64,000 nucleotides of DNA, taken from NCBI RefSeq assembly GCF_904846675.1, contig NZ_CAJHBT010000011.1, forward strand, positions 1-64,000, written 5' to 3'. The notes below the pieces were generated by a model. The model was not told where the DNA came from, did no database searches, and saw only the letters and a list, made by a program, of their open reading frames with translations. The translations under genes and the position numbers were made by a program. This document shows positions 12,024 through 35,374 of this stretch, piece after piece (within the stretch, counting starts at the first letter, position 1; each line of letters starts with the position of its first letter). This DNA comes from Psychrobacter urativorans (GTDB lineage: Bacteria; Pseudomonadota; Gammaproteobacteria; Pseudomonadales; Moraxellaceae).

Positions 12024-13955
12024 TTATTGCTGCGCGGTCCAGTCCAGCATGGCGTCCAATACCGGTCTTGCAGTATAAGAGTTTAAGCTTTGCTCGGTAT
12101 TAATCAGTCCGACCACGGTATAGTCTTGACCTGATTGGCCTTTGACATAACCTGCCATCGAGGTGACATTATCCAACGTACCGGTTTTTATCCATGCACG
12201 CCCAATAGCAGAGGATTCTGGCAAGCGCTTGCTATGAGCAGAAATTGTGCCACTCACCCCAGCGATACCCAGCGAGTCGACATAAGCGCCAAAGCTTGGG
12301 TGGCTATAAGCGTAAGTTAATAACTCGCTTAAGTTCGCTGCGCTAATGGTACAGTCACGGCACAGCCCTGAACCATTGGTCAAATACGGCGGCCGGGTAG
12401 TCAGATGCGTCTGCCACCACTGGTTAATACTTTGTAGTGCAGTTGGATAATCAGTCGATTTTGGTGTACCAAATTGATAAAGGCTGGTCGCGCCTTTTGT
12501 ATTGGAATCTGCTATATTGGTTTTATTATAAGCACTTATTGATAATGCCACTTGCTCCGTCATCACATTGTTAGAGAAGTGGTTAATATCATAAATTTGT
12601 TGAGTCAAATTAAGAGACGGATAACTGACAATCGGTAGCGCCGACACAGACAATGCCGCTAAACCGAGCTTAGGGTATGTATTTTTGCCAGTTTTTTTAT
12701 AAGAGTTATGAGGGTTATAAGGCGTCTCTTGTGCAATGACTTGACCGCTTAGCGTATTGCCCATCTGTTGCCATTTTGCGGCAACTGCACGCGCGGCAAA
12801 GTCTTTAGCGTCAGGATAAGCGATATAAAATACATGCTCCCCGCAGCCATCTGGTAGATTAGCATTGAGGACTAATTTATCCGTTTGCCACTGCGGCGAG
12901 AGGCTATATCTAGCTTGCGAACAAGGGGCTGCACGAGTATTCACCACACTAGGCAATTGATAATTTGCCAGCTGCGGGGTGTATGTCAGCTGCGCTTGTT
13001 CATTATCTAGTGGATAACTTTGAATGCCTATGCTACTAAAGTTGACCAAAAAACCATCTGGACTGGCGTTGTAAGGACGTAGTGGCGCGTTATCAAAAGC
13101 AGAAGGATCTTTGCTAACATTTTTAAAGACAGCACTATCGACGATAATATCACCATCAATATGACGGATGCCTGTTTTTTGTACTTGATAAAGCAATTGC
13201 TGCAGACGCTGATGAGTCATTTTTGGGTCGCCACTTCCCTGAATAATCAGATCACCATGCAGACGGTGACCAATGATAATGCCCGAATGATAGACCCGCG
13301 TGTGCCAAACAAAGTCAGCGCCTAAAGTATCAAGGGCAATAAAACTGGGCACAAGTTTCATGGTGCTGGCAGGTGTGCGCGCTACATTAGGTTGATGGTT
13401 AACTAGGGGCTGGTGGATTTTCAGAGGGCCTATCGTGGGTGTTATAGTTAGGGTATCAGTCGCGCCAAAACCATCATTCTTTTGAGCCTTATTTCGGCTA
13501 TTATTTTCATTATTACTAACAGTGTCAGGCTTTGATACAGGTTTACTGGGTAATACGGTAGGGGTGTTCTCTAGGCTTTGGTAGGTATAAGCATCATCGG
13601 TATAATTATGTAGCGCCCGTTCTTGCTGGACGATTTCTTGCTTGCTGACAGTGATAGGAGCGGTTTGGTTGGCTACGCTTTTTTTATTAGCATCATCGCT
13701 GTCAATAACTTGTACTATCTGCGGTAGACGACTGGCATTTTTAGTACCGACTGGAGTAATAATAATACTGATATTAGCGGCGCTCAAATCGGCGCGATTA
13801 AGAGCAGTTTGAATTTCTTTCGGCAATGCGGCTTGTACACCGATTGGTATTACAATTTGTACTAAAAGTGCAGATGCAATCAGCAGCTTAAGTTTCAAGC
13901 GCTTGGGCAGTGGTCTATGAGAGTGACCTAATAGCCGCGCCTTTACAGAAAGCAT
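12024..13955 (-). CDS. dacB: D-alanyl-D-alanine carboxypeptidase/endopeptidase (PBP4 type)
   Basis: A periplasmic class C penicillin-binding protein that trims or opens peptidoglycan cross-links. The serine motif SxxK is in TPASTMKLVPSF. The SxN motif appears as FSNNVMTEQ, and the KTG motif as WIKTGTLDNVTSMAGYVKG. The ATG at 13955 gives a signal peptide with a basic start (RPLPKRLKLK), a hydrophobic LLIASALLVQIVIPIG and a VQA cleavage site. Upstream in-frame starts at 14009 (ATG) and 14033 (TTG) would give an unusually long n-region. A Ser/Asn-rich insert follows the first quarter of the protein. Confidence 0.92.
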   Translation of the reverse strand: MLSVKARLLGHSHRPLPKRLKLKLLIASALLVQIVIPIGVQAALPKEIQTALNRADLSAANISIIITPVGTKNASRLPQIVQVIDSDDANKKSVANQTAPITVSKQEIVQQERALHNYTDDAYTYQSLENTPTVLPSKPVSKPDTVSNNENNSRNKAQKNDGFGATDTLTITPTIGPLKIHQPLVNHQPNVARTPASTMKLVPSFIALDTLGADFVWHTRVYHSGIIIGHRLHGDLIIQGSGDPKMTHQRLQQLLYQVQKTGIRHIDGDIIVDSAVFKNVSKDPSAFDNAPLRPYNASPDGFLVNFSSIGIQSYPLDNEQAQLTYTPQLANYQLPSVVNTRAAPCSQARYSLSPQWQTDKLVLNANLPDGCGEHVFYIAYPDAKDFAARAVAAKWQQMGNTLSGQVIAQETPYNPHNSYKKTGKNTYPKLGLAALSVSALPIVSYPSLNLTQQIYDINHFSNNVMTEQVALSISAYNKTNIADSNTKGATSLYQFGTPKSTDYPTALQSINQWWQTHLTTRPPYLTNGSGLCRDCTISAANLSELLTYAYSHPSFGAYVDSLGIAGVSGTISAHSKRLPESSAIGRAWIKTGTLDNVTSMAGYVKGQSGQDYTVVGLINTEQSLNSYTARPVLDAMLDWTAQQ

Positions 13956-26527: not shown

Positions 26528-28621
26528 ATGAGTAATATAGCCACCATTTTAAAAGATTCGCAATACAATCTCACTCAATTTAAGCAAGAACAGATTGAAG
26601 AGCTTGAAAGTAGAATATTTGATAAAACACAAAGAAATGGTACTAAACCATATGTTGAATGCTTAGTTCGTAAAAAAGATATACGTATAACGCCAGAAGA
26701 GATCGTTCGACAGTTGTATCTATTGACGTTGAATCAAGAGTTCGGCTATCCATATGAGCGTATGCAGGTAGAGTACCCTGTAGCATTTGGACGACAAACA
26801 AAGCGTGCAGATATCGTTATCTTTGATAAAGACCATACTACCTCTGTTTATATTATGGTAGAGATGAAAAAGCCTAAGCTTAAAGATGGTAAAGATCAGC
26901 TTAAGTCTTATTGTCATGCAACCGGTGCGCCAATTGGAGTATGGACAAATGGTGAATCAATCTCGTTTTATAATCGCCGTGATCCAAACTACTTTAAAGA
27001 CATCCCTCGCATTCCACAGGTTCATGAAACGTTACCAGATGTTTTAACAGAGCGCTGGACGATTGAGACTCTAATACAAGAGGATAAATTGGTCAATGAG
27101 CGTAAATCGCTCAAAGATATTATCTTAGAAATGGAAGATGAGGTGTTAGCGAACGCTGGGGTTGATGTCTTCGAAGAATTATTTCAACTTATTTTTACCA
27201 AGCTATACGATGAGATGGAAAGTACCCGCAATAAAATTCGTCATCTTGAATTCCGTAACTATGGTGAGACAGAGACTCAGCTCAAAGAAAAGATTCAAAA
27301 TTTATTCGATGAAGCAAAAAGTAAATGGGAAGGGGTATTTAGTACCAGTGCTAAGATTACGCTGGCACCATCACATCTAGCGATTTGTATTTCTTCACTT
27401 GAGCAAGTTAAGTTATTCAATTCTAACCTTGATGTCGTTGATGAGGCTTTTGAATATTTAATCAATAAATCTAGTAAAGGGGAAAAGGGACAATACTTCA
27501 CGCCTCGCTATGTCATTGATATGTGTGTCAAAATGCTTGATCCAAAACCTGAAGAGACGATAATTGATACGGCAGCTGGCAGCTGCGGCTTCCCTGTTCA
27601 TTCTATATTCCATGTATGGGAAAAGCAGCTTAAAGCAAGAGGGCTAGAAGCTAGTCATCTCTTTACTGCTGAAGAGCGTTTCCCTGAGCAGTTAGACTAT
27701 GTGACCGATAAGGTCTTTGCTATCGACTTCGATGAAAAAGCGGTTCGAGTGGCTCGTACCTTGAATCTCATCGCAGGAGATGGGCAGACTAACGTTCTAC
27801 ATCTTAATACGTTGGACTATGAACGTTGGAGCGATAAAACGGAAGATGAAGACTGGCGAGATATTTATCATGAAGGTTGGAAGCGACTAAGAAAGCTGAG
27901 AGCAACTAAAAATCAAGATCGAGATTTTATTTTTGATGTTTTGATGGCGAACCCTCCATTCGCAGGCGATATTAAAGAAAGTCGTATATTATCAAAGTAT
28001 GAGCTAGGGCATAAAACAGATGGTAAGCAGCAATCTAAAGTTGGCCGAGATATCTTATTTATAGAACGTAATCTAGACTTTTTGAAGCCTGGCGGTCGTA
28101 TGGCCGTCGTTTTACCTCAAGGTCGTTTTAATAACTCTAGTGATAAACATATTAGAGAGTTTATTGCAGGTCGTTGCCGAATATTGTCAGTAGTCGGATT
28201 ACATGGCAATGTATTCAAGCCTCATACAGGCACTAAAACAAGTGTGCTCTTGGTACAAAAGTGGAATGATGATCCACAAAAGGGAGTGTTATGTCCCAAG
28301 ATTGAGGATTACCCAATATTTTTCGCTACTATGCAGGAACCTAGTAAGGATAGTGGAGGTGAGAAAATATTCGTCAAAAAATCAGACTACCCTCAAGCTA
28401 ATACAATCAATATGGACGCTAGTGAAGATGGCGTAGCTGAAGTTGTTAATACTTATAACAGTGGGGCAGAAGGTTTAGATGACTATTTACTAGACAACCA
28501 CGGGCATTTAATTGTTAAACATGATTTGTTTAACCATGATGGACTAACTCAAGATGGCATCGCTGAAGCCTTCGTTGAGTTTGCTAAGAAGGAGAAACTG
28601 TCTTTTGTGGGAAAGAGCTAA
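26528..28621 (+). CDS. HSDR_N-like nuclease domain fused to HsdM-type adenine DNA methylase
   Basis: 697 residues. Residues about 40-160 resemble the HSDR_N domain, with PD-(D/E)xK candidates D95 (RADIVIF) and E112-M-K114. A helical linker follows, then an N6-adenine methylase: GQYFTPR at 321-327, SAM motif I DTAAGSCGF at 347-355 (Cys replaces the common Gly), and motif IV NPPF at 475-478. It would methylate adenine and might cleave DNA itself. No helicase motifs are present, unlike HsdR. It leads an operon with a specificity subunit and a HEPN-like gene. Its stop is directly preceded by a G GGA AAG heptamer. Confidence 0.85.
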   Translation: MSNIATILKDSQYNLTQFKQEQIEELESRIFDKTQRNGTKPYVECLVRKKDIRITPEEIVRQLYLLTLNQEFGYPYERMQVEYPVAFGRQTKRADIVIFDKDHTTSVYIMVEMKKPKLKDGKDQLKSYCHATGAPIGVWTNGESISFYNRRDPNYFKDIPRIPQVHETLPDVLTERWTIETLIQEDKLVNERKSLKDIILEMEDEVLANAGVDVFEELFQLIFTKLYDEMESTRNKIRHLEFRNYGETETQLKEKIQNLFDEAKSKWEGVFSTSAKITLAPSHLAICISSLEQVKLFNSNLDVVDEAFEYLINKSSKGEKGQYFTPRYVIDMCVKMLDPKPEETIIDTAAGSCGFPVHSIFHVWEKQLKARGLEASHLFTAEERFPEQLDYVTDKVFAIDFDEKAVRVARTLNLIAGDGQTNVLHLNTLDYERWSDKTEDEDWRDIYHEGWKRLRKLRATKNQDRDFIFDVLMANPPFAGDIKESRILSKYELGHKTDGKQQSKVGRDILFIERNLDFLKPGGRMAVVLPQGRFNNSSDKHIREFIAGRCRILSVVGLHGNVFKPHTGTKTSVLLVQKWNDDPQKGVLCPKIEDYPIFFATMQEPSKDSGGEKIFVKKSDYPQANTINMDASEDGVAEVVNTYNSGAEGLDDYLLDNHGHLIVKHDLFNHDGLTQDGIAEAFVEFAKKEKLSFVGKS

Positions 28622-30042
28622 GCCCTTTTGATGAAGCAAAATACCAAGCTTTGTTAGAGGGGTTAGAGATCAGTGAGATTGGTTTTTCAATAGTATCAGA
28701 AGGTATTTTAAGGTTAGAGTCTGAGTTCTATACTATAGAGACGTTTGAATCTAATAATTACTATTTAGGTGAAAATATTATTGATAATGCTGAGTATAAT
28801 TCTATTTATGGTATGAATAGTGAAGGTAGGGGATACTTAGCATTAAGAATGAACGAGTTTGATACTATATTTACTGGACAGCCAGAACAGTTTGCGCATA
28901 ATTTTACTGAAATTGACTTTGAGAAACATAGACTAAGAAAAAATGATATTTTAATATGTCGAACTAACGGCAACCCTAATTTAGTCGGGAAGTCTGCATT
29001 AGTGGCAAAAGATTATCCTTTCGTTTATGAGTCGCATCTGTTTAAAATACGTCCTATTCAAGATAAGATTAGCTCAGCAGCATTGATAGTATTCTTAAAT
29101 TGCAAGTATGGAAAAGCTGAACTAAAAAAGTTTTCTATGCAGGGTAATCAATCTAATTTTAGTCTTGCTAAATTTAGAGAAATTAGAGTACCTAAGCTTG
29201 AAGGTTTTTTTAATAAAAAAATTGAGAATATAGTTTATACTGCTTTTAATAAACTAAATGACTCTCAAGATAAATATTTTAAATCTGAGGAGTTATTACT
29301 AATAGAATTAGGATTATCTGGTTTTAGTTCAAATCAACAAAGCATTAATATTAAGTCTATAAAAAATAGTTTTTTAAAAACAGGTAGATTAGATGCTGAG
29401 TATTACCAACCTAAATATGACGAGATAATTGAACAAGTTAAGTCAGCACCTCATGATAAATTAAAGAATTTGGCATACGTTCAAAAATCGATTGAGCCTG
29501 GTTCAGAGGCTTATCAAGAGACAGGAACACCTTTTTATAGAGTATCTAACTTAACTAAGTTTGGATTGATTCAACCTGATATACATCTCGACGAATATAA
29601 ATATAGTGACACTATCCGTCCTAAGAAAGATACTATCCTATTGAGTAAAGATGGCACAGTAGGAATGGCATATAAAGTAGCTAAAGATATTGATGGTATT
29701 ACTTCAGGAGCAGTATTACATCTTAATATTAAAGATGAAGCTAAAGTTTTGCCTGATTATCTTACTTTAGTTTTGAATTCTATAGTGGTGCAGCTACAGG
29801 CTGAGCGAGACGCTGGAGGTTCAATTATCCAGCATTGGAAACCATCGGAAATTGAAGAAGTAGTTATCCCTTTGTTAGATATTAATGTTCAGCAGAAAAT
29901 TGCTGAATTAATCCAACAAAGCTTTCATCTCAAGGCAGAAAGTGAGCAGTTATTGGAAGATGCTAAAAAGCTAGTTGAGTATGCTATTGAAAATGGTGAA
30001 GGTAAGGCTCTAGTGAATTATAAGCTAGGTTTGATAGAGTAA
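28600..30042 (+). CDS. Type I-like specificity (S) subunit, start unclear
   Basis: An HsdS-like protein with two target recognition regions. The first spans about 28680-29250. The second begins near FLKTGRLDAEYYQPKYDEII and ends LQAERDAGGSIIQHWKPSEI, a typical TRD plus helix. The family-like N-terminal text GKELSPFDEAKYQALLEGLE is encoded from about 28609, but no ATG, GTG or TTG is in frame before TTG at 28651, which lacks an SD. AAGGAG at 28589-28594 is well placed for initiation at a GTC (28600), or it could stimulate -1 frameshifting from the methylase frame at 28609-28615. The stop is TAA at 30040. Confidence 0.8.
   Translation, partial: VFCGKELSPFDEAKYQALLEGLEISEIGFSIVSEGILRLESEFYTIETFESNNYYLGENIIDNAEYNSIYGMNSEGRGYLALRMNEFDTIFTGQPEQFAHNFTEIDFEKHRLRKNDILICRTNGNPNLVGKSALVAKDYPFVYESHLFKIRPIQDKISSAALIVFLNCKYGKAELKKFSMQGNQSNFSLAKFREIRVPKLEGFFNKKIENIVYTAFNKLNDSQDKYFKSEELLLIELGLSGFSSNQQSINIKSIKNSFLKTGRLDAEYYQPKYDEIIEQVKSAPHDKLKNLAYVQKSIEPGSEAYQETGTPFYRVSNLTKFGLIQPDIHLDEYKYSDTIRPKKDTILLSKDGTVGMAYKVAKDIDGITSGAVLHLNIKDEAKVLPDYLTLVLNSIVVQLQAERDAGGSIIQHWKPSEIEEVVIPLLDINVQQKIAELIQQSFHLKAESEQLLEDAKKLVEYAIENGEGKALVNYKLGLIE
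28609..28615 (+). promoter_or_regulatory. Candidate -1 ribosomal slippery site at the methylase/S junction
   Basis: The heptamer G GGA AAG is in the X XXY YYZ register of the methylase frame, two codons before its TAA. An AAGGAG lies 14 bases upstream. Slipping back one base would read straight into the S-subunit frame (GKELSPF). A strong downstream hairpin was not seen. This is inference from sequence only. Confidence 0.4.
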
Positions 30043-30058
30043 TAGGATATTAGATAGT

Positions 30059-30853
30059 ATGGCTAATGGTTATGTGGAAAACGTTGAAAAGTGGAAAACT
30101 TTAACGGATATAGATTATTTTACTTATTTCATTAAGGCTTGGATATCATTTAATGCTTGGTATAAAAATCAGTATGTAGGTATCAATAGTGATAGAGAAG
30201 CTATTAATAAGATTAAAAATGAGAGTAATAGTATTAGAAACAAGGCTATCGGTCTTCTTGGTTCGGAAAACGAACAAGCTACATTATTCAAAGCTTCGTT
30301 TGCTTCGCTTCATAAAAGTCTAATGGAATTAGCCGTCCATAATGGAGGAGAGAGATTATATTTTGAAAAATTTATGTGCGAAGTGGATAGAAGTAATTTA
30401 ATACAAAGCTTTCGAAATAATAAAATAGAATACTTCGTTAAAATTGAAATGACTAGAAATGACTTTGGTAGCATCCTAGTAACTATCAAAAACTCTAATA
30501 ATTTAACTATTCTTAACTACACTAGCAGAACATATGATATTAATGACTTTTCTAGAAAAAGTGCTTACTTAAGCTTATCAAGTAAGCAAAAAGAACAAAT
30601 TACCCATGCTTTTAATGAAGCAAATCCTTTTAAATATGAGTCTCTACTAACAAATGATATTGACAATTGCTTAGAGATAGGGTTATACAAATTTATCGAC
30701 GATAAGGAAAAGGTCTTTAAATGCTTGATAGAAATAATATATGGTCTTAGAAATGCTCTTTTTCATGGCGAAATTGTACCCAATAAGGATCATAGAAAAG
30801 TGTACGAACATGCATACCATGTGTTAAAGATACTTTTAGATAGCTTAGATTAG
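30059..30853 (+). CDS. HEPN-like protein in restriction-modification operon
   Basis: 264 residues, 16 bases downstream of the S-subunit stop. The N-terminus DYFTYFIKAWISFNAWYKNQ is helical and aromatic. The C-terminus holds GLRNALFHGEIVPNKDH, where R231 to H236 fits the R-x4-6-H motif of HEPN RNases, followed by a helix (YEHAYHVLKILLDSL). HEPN proteins are often RNA-cutting effectors in toxin-antitoxin, CRISPR and restriction loci, which suggests an abortive or backup effector. Base composition is clearly AT-rich, like the S gene. The remainder matches no family known to me. Confidence 0.7.
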   Translation: MANGYVENVEKWKTLTDIDYFTYFIKAWISFNAWYKNQYVGINSDREAINKIKNESNSIRNKAIGLLGSENEQATLFKASFASLHKSLMELAVHNGGERLYFEKFMCEVDRSNLIQSFRNNKIEYFVKIEMTRNDFGSILVTIKNSNNLTILNYTSRTYDINDFSRKSAYLSLSSKQKEQITHAFNEANPFKYESLLTNDIDNCLEIGLYKFIDDKEKVFKCLIEIIYGLRNALFHGEIVPNKDHRKVYEHAYHVLKILLDSLD

Positions 30854-31031: not shown

Positions 31032-34000
31032 CTACAAATTCGGATTCAACCACTTCTCAGCCGTTTTCATATCCCAGCCTTTACGCTCAGCATAGCTCTC
31101 TAACTGCTCCATGCTGATTTTACCGACGTTAAAGTAGACACTTTCAGGATGCGAGTAATAGAATCCGCTAACGGATGAGGCAGGCCACATCGCATAGCTT
31201 TCGGTCAAGATGGTACCGATAGCATCGCCGGTGCCAATCCATTCGAATAATTTGCCTTTTTCAGTATGTTCAGGACAGGCAGGGTAGCCAGGAGCAGGGC
31301 GGATACCGACGTATTTTTCTTTAATCAGCTCCTCATTACTCAAGCCTTCATCAGACAGATAGCCCCAATACTCAGTACGGATACGCTTATGCAGATGCTC
31401 AGCAAAGGCTTCCGCTAAGCGGTCAGACAAGGCTTGTACCATGATAGCGTTATAGTCATCACCGTTGTTTTTATACGCTTCAGCGACTGCTTCCGTACCT
31501 GCTATTGAGACGGTAAAGCCGCCAAGATAATCGGTATGGGTTTCCGATGGCGAGATAAAGTCCGCCAAGCTATAGTTGGGCTTGCCGCTGGCCTTATCGC
31601 TTTGTTGACGCAGATGCTCGAATTGATAGACTGGCGTACCGCCCTGTTGTGGGTCATTATCATAAACGGTAACCGTATCCGCGCCGGTACGTCTTGCTGG
31701 GGCGATTTTAAACACGCCTTTGGCAACAATTAATTTCTCATCAATCAGTTTTCTGAGCATGTCTTCGGCGTTCTGAAACAAGTCGCGTGCCGCTTCGCCA
31801 ACCACGTCATCTTGTAAGATTTTGGGGTATTTGCCCGCCAGTCCCCAAGAGATAAAGAACGGTGTCCAGTCAATAAAAGGGATTAATTTATCTATTGGGT
31901 AATCATCAAATATCACTTGGCCTTGCTCGTTAGGAGTGGGCGGCACGTAGTTATCCCAATCATCCTTAAAGCCAATTTTGATAGATTGAGCATACGATAG
32001 CTGGGCGGCTTTGGGTTGGCGTTTGGCCAAGCGTTCACGTACCTTGATGTATTCTGCGCGAGTTTCATCAACCAAACCTTGACGATGCTCTTTGGATAAT
32101 AATTTAGTGACCACGCCGACTGCGCGTGAGGCATCCGCCACATAGATGACGCCGTTGTTTTGATATTGTGGTTCGACTTTGACCGCGGTATGCGCTTTAG
32201 AAGTCGTTGCACCGCCGATCATCAGTGGTAAGGTTATGCCGCGCTCTTGCATTTGCTTGGCGACATAGACCATCTCATCAAGGCTGGGCGTGATTAACCC
32301 AGATAACCCAATGATATCGACCTTTTCGGCAAGTGCGGTATCAAGGATTTTTTCACAGGGTACCATCACGCCCATATCGACGATGTCATAACCGTTACAA
32401 CCTAGTACCACCCCGACGATATTTTTACCAATGTCATGGACGTCGCCTTTGACCGTCGCCATCAGGATTTTACCTTTGGTTTCACCTTCTACTTTTTCCG
32501 CTTCAATGTACGGGTTAAGCCATGCGACCGATTGTTTCATAACGCGCGCGGACTTCACTACTTGCGGTAAGAACATTTTACCAGAACCAAATAAATCACC
32601 GACGATATTCATGCCATCCATCAGTGGCCCTTCGATAACTTCCAATGGACGCGGGTATTTCTCCCACGCTTCTTTGGTATCGGCTTCAATGAAGGTGGTA
32701 ATACCTTTGACTAAGGCATGGGCAATACGTTCTTCAACCGTGCCTTCACGCCATGTTAAATCGACCGTGCTGTCTTTTTTCTTGCCGCCATTCTGATAAT
32801 TCTCAGCGATGGTCATCAGGCGTTCAGTGGCATCTTGTCCGGTCTCGCCTTGATTACGGTTGAACATCACATCTTCGATGGCATCGCGTGCTTCTTTAGG
32901 GATGTCATCATACAGCTCAAGCATGGCGGGGTTGACGATACCCATGGTTAGGCCGTTTTGTATCGTGTGATAGAGGAAAACGGAGTTAATGGCTTCACGG
33001 ATCGGGTTACCACGGAAGCTGAAGGAGACGTTAGAGATACCGCCCGATACCATCGCATTAGGCAGGTTATCGGTAATCCAGCGCGTGGCATTGATAAAGT
33101 CTGCGCCGTAGTTATTGTGTTCAGTGATACCAGTGGCGACCGCAAAAACGTTGGGGTCAAAGATAATGTCTTCCGATGGGAACCCCACGTCATTGACCAG
33201 TACGTCATAGCTACGCTTAGAGATTTGAGTTTTACGCTCGAAGGTGTCGGCCTGTCCGTCTTCATCAAAGGCCATAACGATAATGGCGGCACCGTAGCGC
33301 ATACATAACTTGGCGCGCTCAACGAACTCATCGTGACCTTCTTTTAAGGAGATGGAGTTGACGATACATTTGCCTTGGGTACGCTTGAGGCCTTCTTCGA
33401 TGATGTCCCATTTAGAGGAGTCCAGCATCAAAGGAACACGGCTGATATCAGGCTCACCGGATACCAAATTGACGAAGTGAATCATCGCCTGCTTGGAGTC
33501 CAGCATGCCCTCGTCCATATTGATATCGACGACTTGCGCGCCGCCTTCAACTTGGTCACGGGCAACATCAAGCGCTTCGGTATAGGCTTCAGTTTTGATT
33601 AAACGTAAGAATTTCTTAGAACCGGTCACGTTGGTACGTTCCCCGACGTTCACAAACAAGCTTTCAGGGGTGATAGTAAAAGGTTCAAGTCCAGACAAGC
33701 GGCAGGCAGGTGGAATCTCAGGAATCACCCGCGGTGGGAACTTGGCGACCATATTGGAGATTTGGCGGATGTGCTCAGGCGTAGTACCACAGCAACCACC
33801 GACGATATTTAAGATACCCGCTTTGGCAAAGCCTTCTAACAGCGCGGTGGTCTGTTCAGGAGTTTCGTCATATTCACCAAACTCATTGGGCAAACCAGCG
33901 TTAGGATGCGCGGACACATACATATTGGCAATGTTCGATAGGGTTTGAATGTGCGGTCTGAGCGCATCCGCGCCTAGCGCACAGTTAAAGCCCACAGAGA

Positions 34001-34829
34001 GTGGTTTGGCATGGCGAATGGAGTTATAAAACGCTTCAGCCGTTTGTCCTGAAAGGGTTCGGCCTGAGGCATCAGTAATGGTACCCGATATCATAATTGG
34101 CAGCTCAAAGCCGATATCATCAAACACCCCCGTCACTGCAAAAATCGCTGCTTTGGCATTGAGCGTATCAAAGATAGTCTCAATTAAGATGATATCAACG
34201 CCGCCTTCCATTAACGCTAATGTCGCCTCCCGGTAATTGAGCACCAATTCATCAAAGGTAATATTACGAAATGCAGGGTCATTGACATCTGGGGACAGGG
34301 AACAGGTGCGTGATGTTGGCCCCAAGACTCCAGCCACAAAGCGTGGCTTCTCAGGCATCTTAGCCGTAAACTCGTCAGCTACTTCACGGGCAATTCTCGC
34401 GGCTTCCCTATTCAGCTCAGGCACTAGATATTGCATATCGTAGTCTGACATCGACAAGCGTGTGCCATTAAAGCTGTTGGTCTCGATGATATCTGCACCA
34501 GCGGCAAGGTGGTCGGTATGAATCTCCTTCACCATATGCGGTTGCGACAGCACTAATAAGTCGTTATTACCGCGCACATCTTGGTTGATATCGGCAAAAC
34601 GCTCGCCGCGATAGTCGGCCTCCTCCAACTTATAGTTCTGAATATGAGTTCCCATCGCCCCATCTAACATCAAAATTCGCGATGCCATCTGTTCGGTGAT
34701 ACGCGCGCGCGCGGTAAGCTGCTGTGCTTTATAGGGAAATAGCACTGGCGGCGTCAGTATAAAATCATCAGCGGCAGGGGAAGTTGCAGCAGGGGTATTA
34801 TCATCTTGGGGAGAAGTTATCGAGGTCAT
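31032..34829 (-). CDS. metH: Cobalamin-dependent methionine synthase
   Basis: A large (about 1,265-residue) enzyme that methylates homocysteine with 5-methyltetrahydrofolate through methylcobalamin. Domains in order: homocysteine binding ([20 protein letters not shown], zinc cysteines in [14 protein letters not shown]), pterin binding ([18 protein letters not shown]), cobalamin binding ([18 protein letters not shown], with the DxHxxG ligand) and AdoMet reactivation ([19 protein letters not shown]). ATG at 34829 is chosen; the open frame to a TTG at 34901 encodes an unrelated hydrophobic stretch. No cobalamin riboswitch was recognised upstream. Confidence 0.96.
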
Positions 34830-35374
34830 AGGAACACTACTTATGTCGTCAGTTTTATAAAATAGGAAAAAAGGGGGAAGGATAAAAAGGAAAAGGTGCA
34901 AATTCTTAGTATTTTAGCATGAAAAATGCAGCACTCACGGGCATGGCTTTATTCAACTTTAGCAATATAAAATTTATGCTGTATCGGTATATAGAATGAA
35001 TGGTTATATCATTAGGAAGTGACTCAAAATTTTTATGTGTGTGAATAAATATCAGTCAGCATAATAATTACTCAGAAATCCGACTTTTGAAATAAGAAGT
35101 GGTATTTTGTTCAAAAAATAGGCAAAAATTACACCATTATTACAAAAAGTAGCGTAAACGCAAAATGATAAAGCTGGTGAATATGTTAGTTTATATTCAT
35201 AAAATTTGCATTTTAATAAGTATCGCTAATAAATATTTAATAAAACTTGCCTAGGCGCTGATTATAAACAGCTGTCATAATGTACTACCTTTAGGAAAAA
35301 GGTTAGCTCATAAAATTATAAGTATGTAAAACAACACTCTAGAAACACTTCATTATCAAGGATATTAAATTAAT
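34830..35374. other. 545-bp intergenic region metH/fasciclin gene
   Basis: An AT-rich divergent spacer holding promoters for metH and the fasciclin-domain gene. No riboswitch, tRNA or repeat was recognised. Confidence 0.45.

Follow-up and report, generated by a model that had tools for sequence, protein, structure and literature searches.

Type IIB restriction enzymes such as BsaXI, BcgI, and BaeI combine a nuclease and a methylase in one polypeptide, work with a separate S region containing two target recognition domains, have no motor, and cut on both sides of a bipartite site. They are described as assembling into (RM)2S complexes, and the activity of BsaXI is lost on mutation of E73, D90, E105, or K107 (PMC11997821). 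Fusions of the HsdR nuclease with HsdM, built in 2018, are reported to methylate DNA and not to cut it (PMC6158711), while the HsdMc/HsdSc pair of Zymomonas mobilis ZM4 (ZMO1934/ZMO1933), an HsdR_N-HsdM fusion with an S protein, is described as methylating CAGN4CTG and restricting without HsdR (PMC8432527). An artificial M-S fusion of the Type I enzyme EcoKI is reported to be functional and to require added free M in vitro (PMC3510504). Here we describe a related restriction-modification (R-M) locus of three genes, named RM, S, and H, located within a stretch of 64,000 nt of Psychrobacter urativorans DNA (contig NZ_CAJHBT010000011.1, positions 1 to 64,000; the whole stretch is referred to below as the window). 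Like the Type IIB enzymes it encodes a nuclease-methylase fusion and a two-region S without a motor; unlike them, it apparently produces S as an RM-S chain by −1 ribosomal frameshifting, and S may be followed by H. The resemblance to HsdMc/HsdSc is drawn from the published description of that pair, a possible member of the same family.

The signal between RM and S

The three open reading frames (ORFs) lie on the plus strand with the tight spacing pointed out in the first-pass annotation of this DNA, and the features of the locus are as follows.

26528..28621, + strand: RM gene, HSDR_N-type nuclease and HsdM-type N6-adenine methylase, 697 aa in the 0 frame
26693..27016, + strand: nuclease domain, RM residues 56-163
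27431..28291, + strand: methylase domain, RM residues 302-588, with NPPF at 475-478
28609..28615, + strand: slippery heptamer G_GGA_AAG in the RM frame
28615..30042, + strand: S coding region, in the −1 frame after the slip, with two Methylase_S stretches (Pfam)
28619..28621, + strand: RM stop codon TAA, one codon past the heptamer
28621..28664 (A3 columns 6-49), + strand: hairpin, predicted frameshift stimulator; 5′ arm 28621-28638, 3′ arm 28647-28664
28651-30042, + strand: S ORF counted from its first ordinary start codon (TTG), 463 aa
30059..30853, + strand: H gene, putative HEPN-like accessory protein, 264 aa
30749-30766, + strand: RNALFH motif of H; the predicted beta-rich insert corresponds to H residues 105-213

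Judged by its sequence, the element joining RM and S conforms to the classical pattern of a programmed −1 frameshift signal; it was absent from the first-pass annotation and is the more important feature of the locus. At the junction the RM frame reads GTG GGA AAG AGC TAA, and a slip on G_GGA_AAG would continue it as ...V-G-K-E-L-S-P-F-D-E-A-K-Y-Q-A-L-L-E-G-L-E... in a single chain of 1171 aa; the predicted junction peptide lies around VGKELSPFDEAK. The junction was compared in 95 homologous RM genes, the window included. An X_XXY_YYZ heptamer in the 0 frame is present in the final 60 nt of RM, preceding or overlapping the end of the methylase, in 89 of them, in the form of GGGAAAG (35), GGGAAAA (3), TTTTTTT (44), or TTTTTTC (7). 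One of six such heptamers is located at the final two codon positions of 85 among the 95 RM genes, compared with 9 of 695 other genes from the same loci. Elsewhere in RM, in-frame slippery heptamers are found at 361 of 64,908 positions, and slippery codons encode only 6 of 370 GK and 6 of 122 FF dipeptides. The residues at the slip site vary (VGK 28, PGK 6, AGK 3, WGK 1, SFF 48, GFF 2, HFF 1) while the slipperiness is kept, and the G and T classes of heptamer interchange at least six times in a quick tree built without the last 30 residues. Ten loci from the searches of viral contigs and phages, not used in finding the rule, formed a held-out set, of which L151 ends ahead of the junction. A heptamer with GCCC 6 nt downstream occurs in L142, L143, L144, L148, and L187, that is, in five of the seven held-out loci with more than 50% identity.

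This GCCC, in the 5′ arm of a hairpin, starts exactly 6 nt past the heptamer in 85 of the 89 genes, so that a putative stimulatory structure lies at a constant, short distance from the slip site. The hairpin has 18 pairs. There are 87 distinct 50-nt stretches, and in an alignment of 85 of them, from which L038 and L127 (the latter with a longer loop) were excluded, 87.4% of its cells are paired. Changes on both sides are seen in 10 of the 18 pairs, a number as high being obtained in 1 of 500 shuffles; there are 84 double-change cells against 33.4 in shuffled alignments (0/500), and 33 pair types against 29.6 (13/500). Sliding the hairpin partner lowers all of these measures, save the number of double-change pairs at −3, which ties at 10. 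RNAalifold retains the 11 outer pairs, four of them with compensatory changes, and the window hairpin has a predicted folding energy of −21.3 kcal/mol over 54 nt. Longer hairpins with co-changing bases are present in L143, L144, and L187 (GCCCGTC/GGACGGGC, GCCCATC/GATGGGC).

The S frame, shifted by −1 from that of RM, shows protein conservation even ahead of any usual start codon. Past the heptamer its variability is 1.13 bits at third, 0.75 at first, and 0.52 at second codon positions, and the sequence SPF(N/D)E-(K/R)Y--LLEGLE is kept with synonymous changes both ahead of the first usual start codon and over that codon itself, which in 61 of 95 loci is a TTG at +32 or +35, inside the conserved LL. 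Apart from these loci and those with a TTG at the RM stop (see below), the position of the first start is scattered, and in L006, L014, and L105 there is no S start near that of the +32/+35 TTG. The frame is, in other words, under protein constraint without a start of its own. Because it is protein-coding upstream of the TTG at 28651, this codon is probably not the true start of S, and entry into the S frame probably takes place by a −1 frameshift at 28609-28615. Natural in-frame RM-S fusions also exist, in L072 (1249 aa) and on the Picosynechococcus plasmid pAQ6 (1241 aa by the ORF rule used, 1179 as annotated), and align straight across the junction. We found no report in the literature of ribosomal frameshifting joining R-M genes of the hsdM/hsdS type; the text of PMC4066793, PMC3711429, and PMC5009743 contains no R-M case, and their supplementary tables, the 146 GeneTack clusters among them, may list the signal unremarked.

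RM architecture and the question of a motor

Residues 56-163 of RM match Pfam HSDR_N_2 over the entire profile (1-110 of 110, E 3.3e-28), and residues 302-588 match N6_Mtase (E 3e-30). The PD-(D/E)xK site is intact by sequence: E82, D95, E112, K114, and the NPPF motif, of which D95, E112, K114, and NPPF had already been placed correctly, are invariant in 95/95 aligned homologues. BsaXI is the best match of RM both in the Protein Data Bank by sequence (E 6.6e-21, residues 215-580) and by fold in a Foldseek comparison of the AlphaFold2 (AF2) model (E 1.8e-19, 625 columns). The two Methylase_S stretches agree with the two recognition regions earlier assigned to S, and the earlier reading, in which a nuclease-methylase fusion works with S and has no translocase, is upheld by Pfam, by the BsaXI fold match, and by the neighborhood scans described below. 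The locus shares with the Type IIB enzymes a nuclease and a methylase in one polypeptide, an intact PD-(D/E)xK site, and a two-region S without a translocase.

The architecture of RM is already known to databases, since it is matched by a PADLOC model, its best one being the Type I methyltransferase PDLC03034 (1176 bits); the names given to RM-like proteins by PADLOC and NCBI are Type I methyltransferase or N-6 DNA methylase. At least 8000 proteins are related to RM, and 120 among the matches listed share its architecture as judged by Pfam domains. The methylase and S are also related to those of MADS, with 315.8 bits for NF047738 (MAD2) and 126.8 bits for NF047740 (MAD5); these scores are far under the family cut-offs of 720 and 400, respectively, and the locus was not assigned to MADS.

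The search for a motor covered the 80 best genome loci with RM, of which 39 are flanked on each side by at least 4 kb and 31 by 8 kb. Among 77 ORFs of at least 550 aa, RM not counted, both helicase motifs were present in three: a DEAD helicase without HSDR_N (L029), a DUF3987 protein (L061), and a true HsdR (L044). The last adjoins its own HsdM-S fusion and is the sole HsdR-like gene among the 80 loci. A dedicated HsdR with a translocase was found beside RM-S neither in the window nor in these loci, many of which have incomplete flanks, and the locus was not classified as Type I.

The H gene

R-M systems with HEPN genes have already been described: at least 16 HEPN clades are reported to be linked to such systems, and PrrC is held in check by EcoprrI until phage anti-restriction releases it (PMC3710099). 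A literature search found no report combining type IIB, HEPN, and restriction-modification. As in PrrC/EcoprrI and the other R-M-linked HEPN genes, an Rx4-6H gene is located inside the R-M operon; H differs from PrrC in having no ABC-ATPase domain and in accompanying another kind of R-M enzyme. Within the RNALFH motif R231 and H236 are invariant in 59/59 aligned relatives (60 found), as is RxxLFHG, and Rx4H is present in all 25 operon copies of H checked. The AF2 model (predicted local distance difference test score, pLDDT, 91) consists of helices around a beta-rich insert. A Pfam scan of H gave no match, and the absence of a Pfam ATPase led to the rejection of H as a PrrC-type anticodon nuclease. 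A Foldseek search with the model returned nothing at E 0.001 or better from the Protein Data Bank or viral models, the VIA rows for H cover only residues 109-193, and hhalign comparisons with DUF4145 and HEPN_Apea remained at control level. The motif and the helical model make it plausible that H is HEPN-like, as had been proposed; the conserved Rx4H speaks for that proposal, whereas fold and profile comparisons yielded no HEPN match. Short forms of H, of about 175-213 aa, keep Rx4H and have partly lost the beta-rich insert; those of 186-213 aa occur in L025, L044, L073, L107, L108, L109, and L133.

The gene after S could be read in 65 of the 80 RM loci and is H, on the same strand, in 14 of them. 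As only these 14 carry it, H is an accessory of RM-S loci. The tie is one-sided: most RM loci have no H, and full-length relatives found by searching with H first stand behind RM-S. These searches gave G010 and G058 besides the window among 149 genomes of the family, G154, G244, and G516 among 398 genomes of the phylum, G967 and the weak G780 as additions among 369 genomes of the class, one near-complete copy in plasmids, and, in viral contigs, L127/L128, L129, L130 (H seen by tblastn only), L131 (H split, RM distant), and the weak L132. All 11 distinct clear relatives besides the window lie behind RM and S, unlike the two weak ones (G780, L132). Of the 398 phylum genomes, 11 have RM (at E 1e-100 or better) and 4 have H, all within the 11; with the window excluded, simple arithmetic puts the chance of finding 3/3 H among 10 of 397 at ~1e-5. 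Over 24 loci the RM and H distances are correlated (Mantel r 0.44, 0/5000 permutations), those of S and H hardly so (r 0.11, P 0.09).

A further 31 same-strand genes lie near the end of S. At least nine of the 20 scanned with Pfam are toxin- or defence-like, namely RhuM (2), a nucleotidyltransferase pair, Schlafen AlbA_2, AbiEii, a HipA-like kinase, ThsB TIR, a zeta toxin, and SIR2. H-less loci with such varied genes behind S include L010, L031, L039, L049, L064, L074, and L079, among others. A related RM-S-H cassette with its own slippery site is intact on one Klebsiella plasmid (1/466 matching plasmid records, the remaining ones holding only fragments) and in 3/5,426 complete E. coli genomes, which makes E. 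coli a direct test host. Cassette coordinates are L103:4550-8765 and L188:8001-12216, with a DUF262 gene pair behind. RM-S-H cassettes were also found on contigs classed as viral or phage (L127, L129, L143, and L187, phage status being by classification only); the H of L187 is weak (30 bits).

Proposed mechanism and its alternatives

The reading that we prefer, with a probability of about 0.75, is that of a motorless Type IIB-like enzyme made as RM and RM-S through a programmed −1 frameshift, with H as a restrained second defence. One mRNA would give RM, with nuclease and methylase, and, at some presumed efficiency, hairpin-assisted −1 frameshifting on GGGAAAG would give RM-S with the two DNA-recognition regions. 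From a single copy of each, an (RM)2S complex would then assemble, predicted to methylate a bipartite site and to cut unmethylated DNA nearby without ATP-driven translocation. Of this picture, the fusion architecture, the conserved catalytic residues, the slippery site, the covariation of the hairpin, the coding of the −1 frame, and the linkage of H are shown by comparison, and the efficiency of frameshifting, the make-up of the complex, cleavage, and the whole function of H are inferred. Such a pair of products fits both the (RM)2S assembly and the need of the EcoKI fusion for free M. The engineered EcoKI enzyme (Type IMS) is likewise a functional M-S chain needing free M; it differs in being artificial and in having a separate HsdR, and wild-type EcoKI uses translational coupling. 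In the minority of loci with H, this protein would be a second line of defence restrained by the R-M complex as PrrC is by EcoprrI, and on this analogy a role of H as a PrrC-like backup RNase effector is plausible; the signalling to an RNase effector suggested in the first-pass annotation is likewise conjectural. We put forward only tentatively, as an idea more doubtful than not, that a large, cross-phylum family of motorless R-M enzymes sets its subunit ratio by −1 frameshifting and that an upset ratio frees H, held until then by the complex, as a HEPN-like RNase; translation would govern assembly, and a phage that attacks either translation or the enzyme could upset the RM/RM-S ratio.

Several observations weigh against the preferred reading. 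A Shine-Dalgarno-like stimulator accompanies the heptamer in only 46 of the 89 genes that have one, and the inner four pairs of the hairpin are unpaired in 33-44 of 85 sequences. Six of the 95 RM genes have no heptamer (L049, L050, L072, L107, L133, and L138); in L049 and L050 the T run is merely shorter, and the divergent L107, L133, and L138 have a Shine-Dalgarno-like sequence and an ATG for S instead. In the held-out set the signal is missing from L147 and L149 (51-54% identity) and from the distant L152 and L153 (27-29% identity). A TTG overlapping the RM stop in 12/95 loci is a possible S start. The AF2 model of RM has a mean pLDDT of only 61, higher in the nuclease core, and none of the HEPN profiles tried matches H.

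Several points would suit a separate translation of S by coupled re-initiation near the RM stop, with the heptamer and hairpin tuning the coupling or persisting as relics: the TTG at the stop, the TTG at +32 or +35, and the ordinary-looking start in L107, L133, and L138, which seemingly lost the frameshift signal and gained that start. We consider this very improbable in view of the protein conservation upstream of the +32/+35 TTG, the three loci with no nearby start, the constant spacing that two different heptamers keep to a covarying hairpin, and the in-frame fusions. Still more improbable is an M and S pair of the usual Type I kind borrowing HsdR in trans. Apart from this locus, the genome of the window does have one complete Type I system, located on contig C24 (L110; gene order HsdM, S, a 332-aa protein, HsdR), and the database names of RM-like proteins point the same way. 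Nevertheless, RM has an intact nuclease domain of its own, the HsdM of C24 scores only 19.7 bits against the RM query, no unattached HsdR was found in the RM neighborhoods examined, and the comparable Z. mobilis fusion is described as restricting independently of the HsdR of another system (PMC8432527).

The two remaining alternatives concern H. Its place directly behind S, its distances tracking RM more than S, and the lack of a match to known HEPN folds or profiles would be in keeping with H serving the RM/RM-S complex as a non-catalytic helper or as a structural component and not acting as an RNase effector; with Rx4H invariant in the aligned relatives and H dispensable in most RM-S loci, we hold this to be rather unlikely. 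A little less probable still is that H is cargo, a toxin or defence gene exchangeable for several others and mechanistically unlinked to RM-S. The variety of toxin- and defence-like genes in the same slot (in a survey covering the downstream side of S) and the at least 18 changes of state of H among the 78 rows of a quick tree favour such a role, but pure cargo would be expected elsewhere too, and the 11 clear relatives found by searching with H first, eight or more of them well above noise in bits, are all behind RM-S.

Confirmation of the frameshift would mean that restriction enzymes of a widespread kind are being annotated in two pieces with a wrong start of S, and that cloning RM and S as separate genes may yield the wrong complex. 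Programmed recoding would then join the controls of defence-enzyme stoichiometry, and Type I, Type IIB, and single-chain enzymes would be linked in one step; by analogy, H would offer a simple three-protein case of an R-M system with a suspected abortive effector.

The 3′ end of metH adjoins RM-S in the window (31032-34901) and in two Pasteurellaceae (L016:5211-8894 and 13219-13524; L025:5156-8869). As L016 carries a second metH 3′ fragment past S, the sequences suggest integration of RM-S at metH.

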